64,000 nucleotides of DNA from Ectothiorhodospiraceae bacterium 2226 (GTDB lineage Bacteria; Pseudomonadota; Gammaproteobacteria; GCA-013348725), in contig CP054689.1 in the NCBI GenBank assembly GCA_013348725.1, positions 1,786,501 through 1,850,500 on the forward strand. Direction: 5' to 3'. The notes under the pieces are model-generated. The model made no database searches, was not told the origin of the DNA, and saw only the letters and a program-made list of their open reading frames with translations. Below are positions 7,481 through 19,780 of this stretch, piece after piece. Each line of letters begins with the position of its first letter. Position 1 is the stretch's first letter. Position numbers and translations under genes: made by a program.

Positions 7481-12976
<5,496 letters not shown>

Positions 12977-13423
12977 GGGGGCCTCGGTTCAGTGGGTTGC
13001 TGGACGGCGGTTGTTGCGCGTGCGCGGGGGGAATTGTAGCGGGTGGCGCTAGTTTGAGTGCCTCACGCAGCAAACGAGGTGCAGGCTCCGCCCGCACGTG
13101 GGTGGGTGTGGAGCGGGGGGCTCGGCGACCTAGCAGCCCCGCGGGGCGCTGCCCCCTCGCGGCTCCGTTCCTTCCCCTTCTCGACCCCGGCGCCGCCATG
13201 CGGTACGGTAGGTTCAGTCGGCTGTGCCGACACCAAACAACCATAAGTTCGGGCGATCCAACTCGGTTCCACCATTCCGCGGAGGCCCGCCCCAGACGCC
13301 GCGCCGTTCAGTACCGCGCTGACCGGCAGCATTACCCTTTCACCGCCTGTTACCAGTATGGTGGCGAAATCGTGTTTGAACCCGGGATTATTTGGTCTAG
13401 TAACTGTCGGGCGTGAAAACGAA
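12977..13423. other. divergent intergenic region, 447 bases
   Basis: It separates the minus-strand UvrA-type gene from the plus-strand Abi_C-like gene and should hold promoters for both. The half near UvrA is very G-rich. I see no LexA-type CTG-N10-CAG box, no RNA gene and no credible small gene. Confidence 0.4.
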
Positions 13424-14173
13424 ATGCACCCATTGCCAAGAAATCTGGTCGACCGGTTCGCGGAATCTTTTGCTGGAAATCGCGTTGGTTTTTCTGCGAA
13501 AGAGATCACGAATTACTTCACGCGGTATTCCAATTTAGTGAAGCCATATGACCATTACGGTATGAATCCAACGAGGAAGCAGCTATTTATTGAAAGCGCA
13601 TACTCGCTAAATCCAAAACAGCAATACTACGCTTTAAATGACCTTACTTGGGACGAAAAACCGTCCCGGTATGACTACCCGAATAACGAATCTCGCATCG
13701 AATTGCGTCAGCAATTACATACCTTCATTTCTCCAGATCCGGTAGGAATCAGGTTTTCTCAAATCAGAGAAACGGCGTTCCGTGAGGATTGGGCTACCTG
13801 CATTACTAGGTTGCAACATGATCCAGCCTCAGCAATAACGGCCGCTAGAACTCTTCTAGAAACGCTATTAAAAACAATAGTTACCGAGCGTGGGTCAGTC
13901 CCCGACGGATCTGGTGATCTCGGTCGGCTGATGAAGCAAGCTCAAGACGCAGTAGGCTTTGACCGGGGGCAGGAGCAACCAACACATCAAATAATTAGCG
14001 GGTTGGTTAGCGTCGTCAATGGCTTGGCCACCATTAGCAACAAAGCGGGCGATCGTCATGGGTTGGTTGCAGGGCAAAGCATTGATGATCCCGGTTTAGC
14101 TCAATTGGCGGTGCATGCAGCGGGAACGGTTGGCGTCGCGTTTATTGAGCTTCATTTACTGGGTGCGGCGTGA
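13424..14173 (+). CDS. abortive-infection (Abi_C-like) HEPN-type protein
   Basis: This is a 249-residue protein from ATG 13424; the frame is open to GTG 13358. The C-terminal half has the layout of the Abi_C domain: AARTLLETLLKTIVTERG, then GDLGRLMKQAQDAVGF, and the end QIISGLVSVVNGLATI followed by SNKAGDRHG. Abi_C proteins usually have RNK-x-G-D-x-HG at that point, a HEPN-type RNase motif; here serine replaces the arginine. The N-terminal half is unrecognised. The likely role is phage defence by toxicity on infection. It leads a run of plus-strand genes of visibly lower GC than the surroundings, a sign of horizontal acquisition. Confidence 0.7.
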   Translation: MHPLPRNLVDRFAESFAGNRVGFSAKEITNYFTRYSNLVKPYDHYGMNPTRKQLFIESAYSLNPKQQYYALNDLTWDEKPSRYDYPNNESRIELRQQLHTFISPDPVGIRFSQIRETAFREDWATCITRLQHDPASAITAARTLLETLLKTIVTERGSVPDGSGDLGRLMKQAQDAVGFDRGQEQPTHQIISGLVSVVNGLATISNKAGDRHGLVAGQSIDDPGLAQLAVHAAGTVGVAFIELHLLGAA

Positions 14174-14179
14174 AGTCAC

Positions 14180-14245
14180 GCCCGACCAGGCCCTCCAGCG
14201 GACGCAGTCGCTAACGCGTCTGCTCCGCTGAAGACAACGCTAGAT
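14180..14245 (+). other. attC-like recombination site (degenerate), 66 bases
   Basis: The site runs from GCCCGAC (one mismatch from RYYYAAC) to GCTAGAT (one mismatch from GTTRRRY). Between them are arms CAGCGGA (14196-14202) and TCCGCTG (14224-14230). An inner stem GCAG/CTGC follows, with one unpaired C at 14203, like the extrahelical base of attC hairpins. It starts 7 bases after one stop and ends 9 bases before the next GTG start, which is where a cassette boundary would lie. No integrase gene is in the window. Confidence 0.4.
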
Positions 14246-14254
14246 CTACCGAAA

Positions 14255-14788
14255 GTGCACTCCGAGTCTTTCTACTGGAAGGAGCCACTACTTCAAGCGG
14301 CCGAGTACTTGCGCCGCTTCCGGATTACGGAGCAAACGCGTGAGTCCACTTTCGTGCGTCTTGAGAAGGAGCTTTTCTTAGGCTTCTACTCAGTACGGCG
14401 GGCGCTTGAGTCCATCACCATATCGGACAAGACTCGGAACCTCGTCTACCCATTAATTTGGCACCCCGCGATCAGAGCCGTTGATGCGTGGAACAGCCAT
14501 AGAGTCGAGAAGAACTACGACCTCGAACAGTCGCATCGAGAGATCAGAGACATCGGGTTCATCTGCAATCAATTCATTCATAGTCTCGCGTTCGCTCCGG
14601 TCGCGGGGGGCTGCGATAAGCTTGCAGGATTCTATGTTGCATCCGATCGAGCGAGCCGGAAGCGCTGCTACTTCGTAACCATTGAACATGTCATCAGTAT
14701 CTTTCGCACAGTGGGTCGCGATTATCCCTCCTCGATGAGGATGAGACGGGACCGTTTAACAGGAGCACCGGACGTCTCGGCATGGTAA
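14255..14788 (+). CDS. hypothetical protein with degenerate HEPN-like motif
   Basis: This is a 177-residue soluble, mostly helical protein from GTG 14255, the first start after the attC-like site. No family is named with confidence. A HEPN-like position can be seen at CNQFIHS (about residues 106-112), matching RNKMAHA of the next gene except that the arginine is cysteine. The later part reads AGFYVASDRASRKRCYFVTI, then VISIFRTVGRDYP. It sits between the Abi_C-like gene and a HEPN gene, so a defence-related role is inferred from context only. Confidence 0.55.
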   Translation: MHSESFYWKEPLLQAAEYLRRFRITEQTRESTFVRLEKELFLGFYSVRRALESITISDKTRNLVYPLIWHPAIRAVDAWNSHRVEKNYDLEQSHREIRDIGFICNQFIHSLAFAPVAGGCDKLAGFYVASDRASRKRCYFVTIEHVISIFRTVGRDYPSSMRMRRDRLTGAPDVSAW

Positions 14789-14879
14789 ACAAACCAAAAA
14801 ATCCAAGCGGACTCCGGGGGGAAACTCCAGGGCGTCCTAAAGGTAGATCGGCCCGCAGCCGCTCGATGTATCGTTAGCC
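14784..14879 (+). other. second attC-like gap, weak
   Basis: This 96-base gap ends in GTTAGCC (14873-14879), one base before the ATG of the next gene. Arms AGCGG (14806-14810) and CCGCT (14859-14863), plus CGGG/CCCG inside them, form a hairpin. The left core, GGTAAAC overlapping the TAA stop, has two mismatches to the complement of GTTAGCC. Placement is right for a gene-cassette boundary; the sequence match is weak. Confidence 0.3.
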
Positions 14880-14880
14880 T

Positions 14881-15381
14881 ATGCAAAGCGCACGAGCAAG
14901 CGATTTATACGAGCGATACAAGACTCTGCTTCCGCGGACAAAGGATCTGACGCTCGTTCTGCTGAAAGGGCATCTACTCATAGAGGAGCAGCTAATCGCC
15001 TTCATTAGGGTCAGCTGCGAGCGCCCAAGCGAGCTAGAAGGCTTACGGCTTAACTTCGCGCAAAAAGTGGGGCTAGCCCGCGCATTGGGTGCGCACTCAC
15101 TGCCTGCGCATGTCTGGCAGTTTACAAAGAGCATCAATGCACTTCGGAATAAAATGGCTCACGCGCTAGAAGTGCCAAATATTTCCGCAGATGTTGATGC
15201 GGTACTGAAGAGTTACTACCAAGAGGAGTTCGAGCCTCTAGAAAGCCAACAAAGACGGTCAACCATCCTTCGTCAAACCATTGGTATCACATGTGCGCTC
15301 ATATCCGGGTACACGAGAGAGCGCGCACGTACGAAATCATATGCGAAGGCGGAAAAAGTTCGATTTGGCGGACGCTCTTGA
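14881..15381 (+). CDS. HEPN-domain protein
   Basis: This is a 166-residue helical protein from ATG 14881. The first 125 residues look like a compact HEPN four-helix unit: LKGHLLIEEQLIAFI, FAQKVGLARALG, and the motif ALRNKMAHALE, giving R-x4-H. HEPN proteins with this motif are typically metal-independent RNases acting as toxins or defence effectors. The C-terminus is basic. The next gene starts only 30 bases downstream, so the two are probably one operon or one cassette. No antitoxin of the MNT type is adjacent. Confidence 0.65.
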   Translation: MQSARASDLYERYKTLLPRTKDLTLVLLKGHLLIEEQLIAFIRVSCERPSELEGLRLNFAQKVGLARALGAHSLPAHVWQFTKSINALRNKMAHALEVPNISADVDAVLKSYYQEEFEPLESQQRRSTILRQTIGITCALISGYTRERARTKSYAKAEKVRFGGRS

Positions 15382-15411
15382 ATCGCGCTTTGAAGCGGAC
15401 AGGAAGTGTGG

Positions 15412-16401
15412 ATGAGCATAGATCTGTTTCTAAGGTGTAAGCGTTCTCCTAGGATAGGAGAAATTGAAAGAGTCATCCTTCCTCTCGGGTGGGTTAAGCA
15501 ACAACATTGCTCTGATCGTGAAGAGCGTATCTATCGGTGGTTTCATACCGAAAATTACGAATCTATTAGAGGGTGTTGGCTGTTTATTCGGAGGGCGGGC
15601 GAATCGGACCCAAAGTTCACTAAGCTCGTATTTCATGCTTATTCAAATGCGGGCAGGAGTCATGAAGACTACGCTGCGCAGAATGGCGTCATAAAGGCGC
15701 TCCGGAAGGCATTCGGTGGCGGTATCTACAACCCTCAGGAAGGAAAGCAATCATATTTGGTGAACGACATTCCCAAGCTCTCCCCGGCGGAAAAAGCTTG
15801 CGGATTTAAATATATCGATTTCCAGCACAATCTTAACAGAGCGTCGTTGGCGCTGTCTGATATATCGGAGAAGCTGGGCTGGGATCCAACTCTGAATATT
15901 GGGCTTATAAGGAACAATACGCTCCTCCCATTCGTAGTGGCTAGCTTGGAATCATTTTTTAAAGAATTTTTCATTGCGTACGTAGAGACACATCCAAATG
16001 TTCAAGAAAAGATTTATGAAAAGAAAAGCAAAATTGAATATGCTGAGCTTAAAAAGCTGTTAAGCGGTGAAAAAACGATAGCGCAGCATGAAGCAGACAA
16101 TTATACATTTCAGAATCTTTACTCCGCCAGTAATGCGTACAAGACCTATGTCGGGGTAGATATCTTTAAGGTCCTAGACAGAAGAAAAAAATCTGGCACT
16201 AAAGTGCGAGTGGTAAGGGACGTAATAATGGAAATGCTGGATCTGCGGCATCGGATCATCCATGCGGCGCACCTCGAGACTAGCTTAGATAGAGAAAGGA
16301 TGCTGATCTACATTTCTTATACTAGGAAGGCTGGTCAGTTGTTTGTTGATGCCTTCTTGAGCGAACGACAGTTCAGGATAGATTTAGATGAATGGGTCTA
16401 G
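15412..16401 (+). CDS. large HEPN-motif protein
   Basis: This is a 329-residue protein from ATG 15412, chosen over GTG 15406 because aggaag lies 6 bases upstream of it. The first 120 residues are an unrecognised domain. Residues about 160-320 are helical, with LPFVVASLESFFKEFFIAYV and then VIMEMLDLRHRIIHAAHLE, an R-x4-H HEPN RNase motif in the form common in RiboL-PSP-type HEPN proteins. It is the most AT-rich gene of the window. Pairing with the preceding HEPN gene suggests a two-component defence or toxin module; function is inferred. Confidence 0.65.
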   Translation: MSIDLFLRCKRSPRIGEIERVILPLGWVKQQHCSDREERIYRWFHTENYESIRGCWLFIRRAGESDPKFTKLVFHAYSNAGRSHEDYAAQNGVIKALRKAFGGGIYNPQEGKQSYLVNDIPKLSPAEKACGFKYIDFQHNLNRASLALSDISEKLGWDPTLNIGLIRNNTLLPFVVASLESFFKEFFIAYVETHPNVQEKIYEKKSKIEYAELKKLLSGEKTIAQHEADNYTFQNLYSASNAYKTYVGVDIFKVLDRRKKSGTKVRVVRDVIMEMLDLRHRIIHAAHLETSLDRERMLIYISYTRKAGQLFVDAFLSERQFRIDLDEWV

Positions 16402-16551
16402 AAATCGCGAACAGTCGTGTAAAAACGAGAAAAAAGCAGACGCTACCCTTTTCCTCTAGCGTAGGTCGGTGAGAACCGGGCAGCTGCCGTGTCGAGGCTA
16501 GCCTAATTGAGCATGAGCCTTTGACTTCACGCGTAAGTGTGAGGCAGCCAT

Positions 16552-16599
16552 AAGAGAACAGGCCAGCCCGAATCAAAGAGAACAGGCCGGCCCGAATTT
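16552..16599 (+). repeat. two 24-base tandem repeats
   Basis: Two adjacent copies of aagagaacaggccrgcccga plus four bases lie just downstream of the minus-strand HTH gene's stop. They differ at few positions. Their role is unknown; they may only be a local duplication. Confidence 0.7.
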
Positions 16600-17236
16600 A
16601 TTCGGCTCTCTCTGCTTTTCGAGTAGCGGTGCGTTTCTTTACCGCCCTTGAGTCAGGCGCGTTCGTTGTCTTGACAACTGCGGCAGCCAACTTTTTGGCT
16701 TTTTTGGCTCCAATGATATTGAGCGCCAACCGTTCCTGCCGTAGCTGTTGAAGCTCAAAATTCAGCTTGAATGCTGCGGCCGATACCTCCTTCAACGGTC
16801 TGAGCAGAAGGTCCTTCTTCATTACCGCTGTCTTGGTGTATGTCTCTGCCCAATCGACAACCTCGACCAAGTGCCAGAGCGCTACTGCCTCGCTGGCATG
16901 TACAGGCCTCGGAAACTCTGCTTTTGACAAGACATATTTGCGCACCATTTGGCGTGACACTCCAAGCACGTCAGCAATCTCCCCCATGCCGACAAGGTCG
17001 GGACTTACTTCAGCAATGTTCGCTTGGGGAATTGCCTTCCTGACATCTTCAATGGCAGAACCGATCGCCTCGACTGCGTCGGAAGCTTCCCGGTCAAACG
17101 CAAGAGAAATCAGGCCGATTTGGCCAACTCCTATCAGCGCATCACTGCACCCAGCCTCATACAATGCATCCAGAAACTGCTCTGGGTTCTTTCCGGGTTT
17201 CGGAAGCGAGAAGGTGATCGTAAATTGATAGTTCAT
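16598..17236 (-). CDS. HTH-domain antitoxin-like protein
   Basis: This is a 212-residue protein with a helix-turn-helix at about residues 81-104 (LVGMGEIADVLGVSRQMVRK), of the kind that binds DNA as an autorepressor. The N-terminal part begins YQFTITFSLP and probably forms a small alpha/beta domain. The C-terminus is a lysine/arginine-rich, coiled-coil-like tail. ATG 17236 overlaps the stop of the upstream 84-residue HicA-like gene (ATGA), so the two are co-translated. I interpret it as the antitoxin and repressor of that pair. Confidence 0.65.
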   Translation of the reverse strand: MNYQFTITFSLPKPGKNPEQFLDALYEAGCSDALIGVGQIGLISLAFDREASDAVEAIGSAIEDVRKAIPQANIAEVSPDLVGMGEIADVLGVSRQMVRKYVLSKAEFPRPVHASEAVALWHLVEVVDWAETYTKTAVMKKDLLLRPLKEVSAAAFKLNFELQQLRQERLALNIIGAKKAKKLAAAVVKTTNAPDSRAVKKRTATRKAERAE

Positions 17237-17487
17237 TTCTCTTCGCCTCTATTGGCGTGAAGGCACCCGTCGACGACGCGGCACATCTGCTTGGCGAAAC
17301 TCGAAGGGTTCTTGGGGGTCGACCAGATCGACAGCTGGCAAAAGGTCCCGCAGCGACAAGCGGAATCATTTCTGGGGCATCGAAGGATGCCCCAGGCATG
17401 CCCCCGGCGTTTGGTGAATTTCCATCCCACCGACTCTGCGTGCTGCACGGCGCGCTCGATGTCCTTGTCTGGATGCTTCGGCCTCAA
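17233..17487 (-). CDS. HicA-like toxin
   Basis: This is an 84-residue protein read from TTG 17487, supported by GGAGG eight bases upstream and the absence of another start. It begins RPKHPDKDIERAVQHAESVG and continues with the RGHAWGILRCP segment, resembling the GSHH/GH strand of HicA toxins (dsRBD-like mRNA interferases). A cysteine group follows (ACRCGTFC), then SIWSTPKNP. It is typically found with an HTH partner, as here. The toxin assignment is by family resemblance and gene order. Confidence 0.6.
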   Translation of the reverse strand: MRPKHPDKDIERAVQHAESVGWKFTKRRGHAWGILRCPRNDSACRCGTFCQLSIWSTPKNPSSFAKQMCRVVDGCLHANRGEEK

Positions 17488-17769: not shown

Positions 17770-18462
17770 CTACGCCCCTTCCTTCCTCGGCCGCCCTGGC
17801 TTTCCCGGGGCGACGCGCCGCTTCACCATCCGGGCGATCTCTGCTTTGAACTGCTCGTTGCCGAGCACGTAGCCGCTGTTTGTGGCGGCGCGGATCTGGT
17901 CGATTAGCGTCGGCTCCATGTGGGCGCGGAACAGCTCTCGGTAGGCCGCCAAGCGCCTCGGCTTGGTTCTGCCAAGGCGCGTGTAGTCGGGGTGCGGGGA
18001 GATGAGGGGGGAGGGCTCTCCCTGGCCATTGGTCCGATAGCTGGACCACGGATAGTCGGCGGGATGATCGACCATGCAGGCCCGGACCGGGTTGAGCTCG
18101 ATGTAGCGTTGGCAGGTCAGCAGGTATTGATCACTCTGGGCGAGACAGGAGCGGAAGCGGCCTTCCCACAGGGTGCCGCTGCGCCGATAGGTCCGATTGA
18201 CGTACTGGACGTAACGCTGCCCCAGGTGCTTCATCAGCAGCGCGACGCTGTCGGCCCGCTCGGGCGTTAGCAGCAGGTGTACGTGGTTGGTCATGAGGAC
18301 GTAGGCGTGGACCTGGCAACCCTGCTTCAGAGCCTGCTCCTTCAGCACGTCCAGATAGACGCGGTAATCGGCGTCGGCGTAGAAGCAGGGCGTGCGGTTG
18401 TTTCCCCGCTGGATGATGTGCCAGGGGATGCCTGGTATGGCGATTCGGGCTTGACGGGGCAT
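17770..18462 (-). CDS. REP-associated tyrosine transposase (Y1_Tnp, IS200-like)
   Basis: This is a 230-residue single-strand DNA transposase. The frame runs further upstream into the IS3 element, so the family start MPRQARIAIPGIPWHI at 18462 is used. The HUH pair is in MTNHVHLLLTPE, and the candidate catalytic tyrosine is in the LGQRYVQYVNRTY region. GTLWEGRFRS and YIELNPVRA follow, both characteristic of RAYT proteins. It would mobilise or maintain the flanking REP-type repeats. The coding region is intact, but the insertion 97 bases upstream may have changed its promoter. Confidence 0.88.
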   Translation of the reverse strand: MPRQARIAIPGIPWHIIQRGNNRTPCFYADADYRVYLDVLKEQALKQGCQVHAYVLMTNHVHLLLTPERADSVALLMKHLGQRYVQYVNRTYRRSGTLWEGRFRSCLAQSDQYLLTCQRYIELNPVRACMVDHPADYPWSSYRTNGQGEPSPLISPHPDYTRLGRTKPRRLAAYRELFRAHMEPTLIDQIRAATNSGYVLGNEQFKAEIARMVKRRVAPGKPGRPRKEGA

Positions 18463-18590
18463 TGAGTGCCCTCTTGTCGTTCGGGTTGCGTACGAAATCC
18501 TACCAGAGGCGGTACCCGTTTGGGCGCGCGAGCGCGGTGAACGATCGGAAACCGGGGTCTGAGCTAACCCGGATTCCTCGGACAGGTTAA

Positions 18591-19454
18591 TTAAGCATTT
18601 CGCCATTCGCCATCAACTTCCTCCGGCGTGCGATAGCCCAGAGTCTGGTGCAATCGCTGCCGGTTATAGTACACCTCGATGTAGTCGAAGATCGCGGCCT
18701 TGGCATAGTCCCGCGTCGGGAAGTCGCGGTGGTGCACGAGCTCGTTCTTTAGGCTCGAGAAGAAACTCTCCGCGACCGCATTGTCGTAAGCGCTCTTGCG
18801 ACCACTCATGCTGGGAAGGGCGCCCGCTGCTTGTAAGCGATCCCGATACATAGCGGCGCTGTAGGTGGCTCCGCGGTCCGTGTGGTGGATGAGGCCCGGT
18901 GGGGGCGCCCGGTGCGCGAGCGCCATGTTCAACGCAGCTAGAGCGAGATCTTTGTCCGGACGCGTTCCCATCGCCCAGCCCACCACTTTGCGGGAGTAGA
19001 GGTCGAGCAGCACCGCGAGGTTGAGCCACCCCTCCCGGGTGCGGATGAAGGTGATATCCCCGACCCACGCACGATTGGGCGCCGACGCGAGGAAACGACG
19101 CTCCAGTCTATCGGGCGCCGCCAGAGGTGTCTGGTGGTGCTCGATGATCACCCGAAAGCGGCGCTTGCGGTTGGCTTCGATGCCATCGCGCTTCCTCAGC
19201 CGCGCCACACGGTGCTTGCCACAGGGGACGCCTTCGCGGCGTAGAACATGCCAAGTCTTGAGCGCGCCGCACGCCTGTCGGTGTTCACGGTGGATGCGGC
19301 GGATCTCGATCAGGAGGGCGGCATCAGACTGCGCGCGGGCGCTAGTCCCGCGCCCCTGCCAAGCATAAAAGCCGCTGCGCGAGACCTGTAGGGCACGGCA
19401 CAATGAGGCCAAGGAGTACTGCGAGCGCGACACTGCGATGTAGGCGTACTTCAC
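18591..19454 (-). CDS. IS3-family transposase OrfB (DDE integrase core)
   Basis: This is a 287-residue rve-type catalytic half from GTG 19454, probably made mainly as an OrfAB fusion by -1 frameshifting. The acidic triad is in WVGDITFIRTREG, HHTDRGATYSA and NAVAESFFSSLKNE. An HTH_21-type segment (EIRRIHREHRQACGALKTWH) precedes it. The end YNRQRLHQTLGYRTPEEV is the standard IS3 tail. The gene looks intact, so the element may still be active. Confidence 0.92.
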   Translation of the reverse strand: MKYAYIAVSRSQYSLASLCRALQVSRSGFYAWQGRGTSARAQSDAALLIEIRRIHREHRQACGALKTWHVLRREGVPCGKHRVARLRKRDGIEANRKRRFRVIIEHHQTPLAAPDRLERRFLASAPNRAWVGDITFIRTREGWLNLAVLLDLYSRKVVGWAMGTRPDKDLALAALNMALAHRAPPPGLIHHTDRGATYSAAMYRDRLQAAGALPSMSGRKSAYDNAVAESFFSSLKNELVHHRDFPTRDYAKAAIFDYIEVYYNRQRLHQTLGYRTPEEVDGEWRNA

Positions 19455-19780
19455 GTCAGATCCTTCGCGAAGTACGCCGCAGCTTTTTTTAAGATGTCGC
19501 GCTCCTCGGTGACCCGCTTGAGCTCTCGGCGCAGGCGTTCGATTTCGCTCTGCTCGTCAAGGGGCTTGCGGCCTGGTCCACGGAAAGCGCGATCTGTTCC
19601 AGCGACGTCGAGCTGCTCCCTCCATTTATAAAGCTGGTTGCGCGCGACTCCCAGTTCCAGCGCGAGCTGGGTCGCTGGCTTCTGGCCAAGCTCCAATAGG
19701 CGTACTGCTTCGAGCTTGAACTCTTTCGTATACCGGGTGCGCAGGCGCTCCGGATTCACCTTATTCTTCTTCGTTCCCAT
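19451..19780 (-). CDS. IS3-family transposase OrfA (HTH)
   Basis: This is a 109-residue DNA-binding subunit with an HTH_Tnp_1 segment (RYTKEFKLEAVRLLELGQ; ELGVARNQLYKWREQL) that recognises the element ends. A leucine-zipper-like stretch (IERLRRELKRVTEERDILKK) for multimerisation with OrfAB follows. A run of seven A then G (19493-19500 on the complement) lies in the ILKKA codons and is the usual IS3 -1 slippery site. The OrfB frame is open from there. Confidence 0.92.
   Translation of the reverse strand: MGTKKNKVNPERLRTRYTKEFKLEAVRLLELGQKPATQLALELGVARNQLYKWREQLDVAGTDRAFRGPGRKPLDEQSEIERLRRELKRVTEERDILKKAAAYFAKDLT
19493..19500 (-). promoter_or_regulatory. programmed -1 frameshift site (A7G) of the IS3 element
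   Basis: On the coding strand the sequence reads TTAAAAAAAGC. Slipping back one base at A-AAA-AAG puts the ribosome into the OrfB frame, which has no stop between here and the OrfB start. This is the standard way the active OrfAB transposase is made in this family. Confidence 0.7.

Follow-up and report, generated by a model that had tools for sequence, protein, structure and literature searches.

Within the window, by which we mean the whole stretch of 64,000 nucleotides of the Ectothiorhodospiraceae bacterium 2226 chromosome that was analysed here, a double-length UvrA-like gene (1831 aa, positions 7481-12976, minus strand) adjoins a short array of genes on the plus strand. The first of these genes (13424..14173, plus strand) encodes a protein of 249 aa that matches Pfam Abi_C at 3.6e-10 and PADLOC AbiJ at 2e-10, in keeping with a preliminary description of this DNA that had noted an Abi_C-like gene at this place. 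Its likeness to the AbiJ and Abi_C abortive-infection proteins lies in the C-terminal Abi_C domain, whereas its N-terminal part contains no recognised domain. We infer a defence role for the protein, and the gene is likely to be a phage-defence gene. Homologues of the gene were found in 3 of 368 other genomes of the class, and none in the genome_contigs or viral_contigs collections; in genome G308 the homologue is directly followed by an attC site (locus L069, 64.1 bits).

The gap downstream of this gene contains attC site 1 (14180..14245, plus strand), which begins 6 nt after the TGA of the Abi_C-like gene and ends 9 nt before the GTG of the next one. The latter distance is as described earlier; the former had been put at 7 bases. 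The boxes of the site are R'' (14180-14186), L'' (14190-14194), L' (14231-14235) and R' (14239-14245), all on the plus strand. R'' reads GCCCGAC, one mismatch from RYYYAAC, and R' reads GCTAGAT, one mismatch from GTTRRRY, so the claim that both end boxes lie one mismatch off the attC core consensus agrees with the sequence; among control attC sites GCCCGAC is also present, as is one R' that begins with GCT. The arms proposed earlier are likewise all present: CAGCGGA/TCCGCTG (14196-14202/14224-14230) and GCAG/CTGC (14204-14207/14220-14223) form two stems separated by a single unpaired C (14203), with a further unpaired C at 14195. Folding energies are -19.8 kcal/mol for the bottom strand (z -3.9, equalled by 0 of 200 shuffles) and a weaker -16.1 kcal/mol for the top strand. 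Since attC sites recombine through the bottom strand (PMC8352920), the stronger fold of that strand is what would be expected of an attC site. The pairing between the site's own boxes is poor (2 of 7 Watson-Crick for R''/R', 3 of 5 for L''/L'), and together with an R' that begins GCT instead of GTT it marks the site as atypical or decaying.

A crude structural score of the site (9.1) gave no separation from chance, and for that reason we trained covariance models of attC, which stand in for the model of IntegronFinder. Among 274 genomes of the same class that were searched, 103 contained an integron integrase over the curated cut-off, and training attC sites, chosen by their clear layout, were taken from 20 flanking regions and smaller intI loci. 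Model R1 was built from 28 attC sites, and a search with R1 gave the 113 sites from integrase-bearing relatives on which model R2 was built; neither training set included the window site. When R2 was run over both strands of the whole window at E <=10, it returned one match, 14180-14245 on the plus strand, at 30.5 bits (E = 5.4e-5) and over the full model length. The covariance-model check proposed in the preliminary description, run here with a custom-trained model, therefore recovered the site with its exact ends. R1 found the same locus alone in the window, at 17.9 bits. A 5'-half weight matrix from relatives' attC sites ranked position 14180 first of 127,952 (20.5 bits), and the next-best 5'-half score within 12.9-20 kb was 1.8. 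By these measures of sequence and fold, 14180-14245 is a genuine attC recombination site. Rfam at gathering thresholds gave no match in the window. A genome-wide R2 scan, which was not exhaustive, scored 150 of 2311 candidates, and the window site was not among them; the best genome-wide match of R1 fell within a queC-like coding sequence and was a false positive.

In an integrated array, the R'' of a cassette is expected to pair with the R' at the cassette's own left edge. At 13406..13412 (plus strand) we found GTCGGGC, which perfectly complements the R'' at 14180 (7 of 7) from 770 bp away, and the two partners share one unusual departure from consensus. A full 7/7 match of this kind was seen in 71% of 66 control cassettes, against 9% when R'' and R' were paired at random. 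The hairpin does not explain the agreement, because the boxes of the site itself match at only 2 of 7 positions. These matching R boxes at both ends delimit cassette 1, an 833-bp gene cassette (13407..14239, plus strand) of 50% G+C, compared with 67-73% in the surrounding chromosome. The cassettes as a group, at 50 to 54% G+C, look foreign beside uvrA (73%) and the 20-40 kb region (67%).

Directly before cassette 1 lies a degenerate attI-like site (13369..13407, plus strand) with a crossover expected at 13406/13407. A second array on the same chromosome, near glmS, has 40 bp in front of its first cassette that resemble the roughly 40 bp before 13406. At segment lengths of 30-50 nt, at most 1 in 4000 random segments reached the score of this resemblance, and a pattern derived from the two copies occurs twice in the genome, at those two places alone. 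(A first attI pattern had the wrong spacing and gave no matches.) Several relatives have the same motif upstream of intI, at a distance of roughly 260-285 bp, and on that ground we identified it as attI. Rankings of the window copy depended on the query: with the attI of L062, L032 and L020 it came first among 5114 window tiles, and with five other attI queries it ranked lower. When the attI sites of relatives were used as single queries, the window copy came first for 2 of 7 and lower for the rest. Eleven attI sites from relatives were aligned (alignment A4); they contain an inverted repeat of 6 bp in which each of the six pairs shows compensatory changes, and model R3 was built from them. 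R3 scored the window copy weakly, at 7.9 bits (E 2.6); with filters off it had no other match in 13 kb, and this one coincides exactly with the edge of cassette 1. Because of the R3 score and the low ranks with most relatives' queries, we term the window copy attI-like and not attI, an assignment that draws mainly on its position and its likeness to the glmS array attI.

Three independent lines of evidence show that the gene upstream of attC site 1 is a cassette gene: the R-box match across the cassette, the degenerate attI-like sequence before it, and distant homologues of genes 1 and 3 that are bounded by attC in other bacteria.

The genes further downstream carry fainter traces of the same organisation. 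Gene 2 (14255..14788, plus strand, GTG start) encodes 177 aa of no recognised family and would occupy a putative cassette 2; its distant homologues lie on unrelated plasmids. The 92-bp gap that separates it from gene 3 has an attC layout and a GTTAGCC end with an ATG right after it. This gap (14788..14879, plus strand; attC site 2) gave the second-best R2 match, at 5.8 bits and E 2.2 with filters off. Its half-sites ranked 31 (3' half) and 122 (5' half) of about 128,000 by weight matrix, its fold was no better than shuffles (z -1.0), and its R'' matches the left edge of cassette 2 at 4 of 7 positions. We consider it a probable decayed attC site. Gene 3 (14881..15381, plus strand), which starts right after GTTAGCC, encodes 166 aa with a HEPN-like RNKMAH motif and would form a putative cassette 3. 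One of its homologues, in Vibrio campbellii (L071), has an attC site on either side, within a cassette stretch that contains eight, and another lies upstream of four attC sites on an uncultured Pseudomonadales contig. No attC was found around two plasmid-borne gene 2 homologues or around two further homologues. It is probable that genes 2 and 3 represent additional cassettes in decay. The next gene (15406..16401, plus strand) is HEPN_RiboL-PSP-like (Pfam PF18735 at 1.3e-5, below the family cut-off); there was no R2 match near or after it, and with no attC following it the gene is not assignable to the array. Two candidates in this region were rejected: a half-site spotted by eye after gene 3 (15377-15402), which the weight matrix did not support, and a motif resembling an R box near 16452-16509, which had no covariance-model match. 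The earlier proposal that these genes arrived as integron cassettes gains from the R boxes, the attI-like edge and the attC-bounded homologues of genes 1 and 3. It would have been weakened had the same genes been kept at other loci free of such spacers; the homologues in G308 and V. campbellii are bounded by attC.

No integron integrase over the cut-off was found in the complete, single-contig 2.96-Mb chromosome, the window included, which extends to the whole chromosome the earlier remark that the window has an array and no integrase. Nothing matched the integrase model except a pair of ORFs (308 and 326 aa), far below the cut-off at a level also reached in 14 of 14 control genomes, and we read them as XerC/XerD. 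A tblastn search between uvrA and the attI-like site detected no intI remnant. This is the one genome of its order in the comparison set.

The same chromosome holds a second integrase-less array, of four small cassettes, downstream of glmS (L062, G000:C1:1470001-1490000, from 11248 to about 9460, minus strand). Its clear attI (11248-11189) scored 51.2 bits with R3. Three attC sites come after it on the same strand: one of 40.5 bits (10826-10752), one of 20.9 bits (10462-10387), and a short third (9919-9878) that is weak at 11.1 bits. The R boxes of its four cassettes agree at 7, 6, 6 and 7 of 7 positions. Between glmS and this array we noticed a ParE-like toxin gene, apparently frameshifted, adjoining an antitoxin-like gene (L062 11453-11737, minus strand). 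A third attI (L083, G000:C1:2472001-2492000, 9350-9291, minus strand; R3 56.7 bits) follows a gene of the sodium:alanine-symporter type. No attC was found at this third locus, and the ORF after its attI looks frameshifted. The chromosome thus has three attI-like sites (window, glmS and symporter), of which the first two have cassettes. The glmS and symporter sites share about 190 bp upstream that have no match in the intI-attI spacers of relatives. Another genome of the class, G054, has a locus (L084, G054:C36:1-15000) in which no intI was detectable in the 15 kb read and which carries an attI (5563-5533) and an attC (4924-4853), both on the minus strand.

Taken together, the evidence leads us to a probability of roughly nine in ten that attC 14180-14245 closes an AbiJ-like cassette (13407-14239) inserted at attI by an integron integrase. 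Because the complete chromosome has no integron integrase, the locus is an integrase-less integron remnant, made up of an attI-like site, the AbiJ-like cassette, which is certain, and another, probable cassette with a weak attC. Formerly it may have been a chromosomal integron itself, or else an attI platform on which such an integron acted in trans. The AbiJ-like cassette would have been inserted at attI by the integron integrase, which would later have been lost, and the cassettes are presumably now fixed in place. CALINs can be mobilised in trans (PMC12444791), and an incoming integrase on another element is predicted to be still able to recombine the folded attC through its bottom strand.

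If the spacer were an ordinary transcription terminator or a chance hairpin between co-directional genes, the strong hairpin in an intergenic gap would be accounted for. The gap, however, lacks a T run and is absent from the promoter/terminator scan list, it has the sequence and layout specific to attC with an R2 match at exact ends, and its R box is matched 770 bp away, which makes this explanation extremely improbable. Another possibility is that an integrase acting in trans placed the cassettes off target, at a site other than attI, and that the locus was never an integron. CALINs have been proposed to arise by off-target insertion, by intI loss and by rearrangement (PMC8618304), and the degeneracy of the window attI by the R3 model and the lack of an intI remnant beside it would suit the off-target route. 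Against this, an attI-like sequence of about 40 bp lies exactly at the left edge, and it resembles the glmS attI, which is itself like the intI-adjacent attI of relatives. We regard off-target insertion as unlikely; among the three origins, the attI-like edge favours intI loss.

The presence of three attI-like sites in one genome nevertheless keeps the trans-acting variant in play. In this variant the three platforms would have come from duplication or spread of the attI region, and one integrase, since lost, would have served them all in trans. The occurrence of three such sites at distant loci with no intI speaks for it, as do the 190 bp shared by the glmS and third attI and unlike the intI-attI spacers of relatives, yet the same picture would result if several integrons had each lost their integrase separately. 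We treat it as a tentative minority explanation. The broader proposition that the attI platform is a dispersed element, of which several copies founded arrays through one trans-acting integrase and are not each a dead integron, seems to us rather doubtful.

As an integrase-less remnant, the locus belongs among elements of a known type. Like the CALINs defined by IntegronFinder (PMC9024848), it has attC-bounded cassettes and no integrase nearby, in this case none chromosome-wide; it differs in having one significant attC in the window and an attI-like site still present. The CALIN-like reading given earlier is supported by the missing integrase and the attC match, with the other window attC weak at 5.8 bits. 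As IntegronFinder by default requires two attC sites for a CALIN (PMC9024848), the window locus, taken by itself, might be classed as a single-attC element. A chromosomal integron, with its intI-attI-attC array, resembles the locus in having attC-bounded cassettes lined up in one orientation behind an attI-like site, but has the integrase gene that is absent here. Closest in setting are the Xanthomonas CALINs without intI (PMC12444791), small cassette sets at fixed chromosomal loci after integrase loss, some carrying defence genes; they occupy loci other than uvrA and glmS, and the arrays described here have attI-like sites at their edges. CALINs are common, with 2961 detected in complete RefSeq genomes by IntegronFinder 2 (PMC9024848), and what is unusual here is the presence of three attI sites and no integrase. 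The existence of several attI sites in a genome that lacks the integrase bears on whether CALINs form by loss in place or by insertion in trans. The locus also illustrates how a single weak-looking attC can be confirmed through the R boxes at both cassette ends and the attI at the array edge. Chromosomal integron cassettes are already documented to carry defence genes (PMC12444791), and an AbiJ-like gene with HEPN-type neighbours may be added to that repertoire.

Further along the window, on the minus strand, two adjacent small genes (16598-17487) look HicB/HicA-like by eye, with no family match, and are followed by transposase genes of Y1 and IS3 type (17770-19780).
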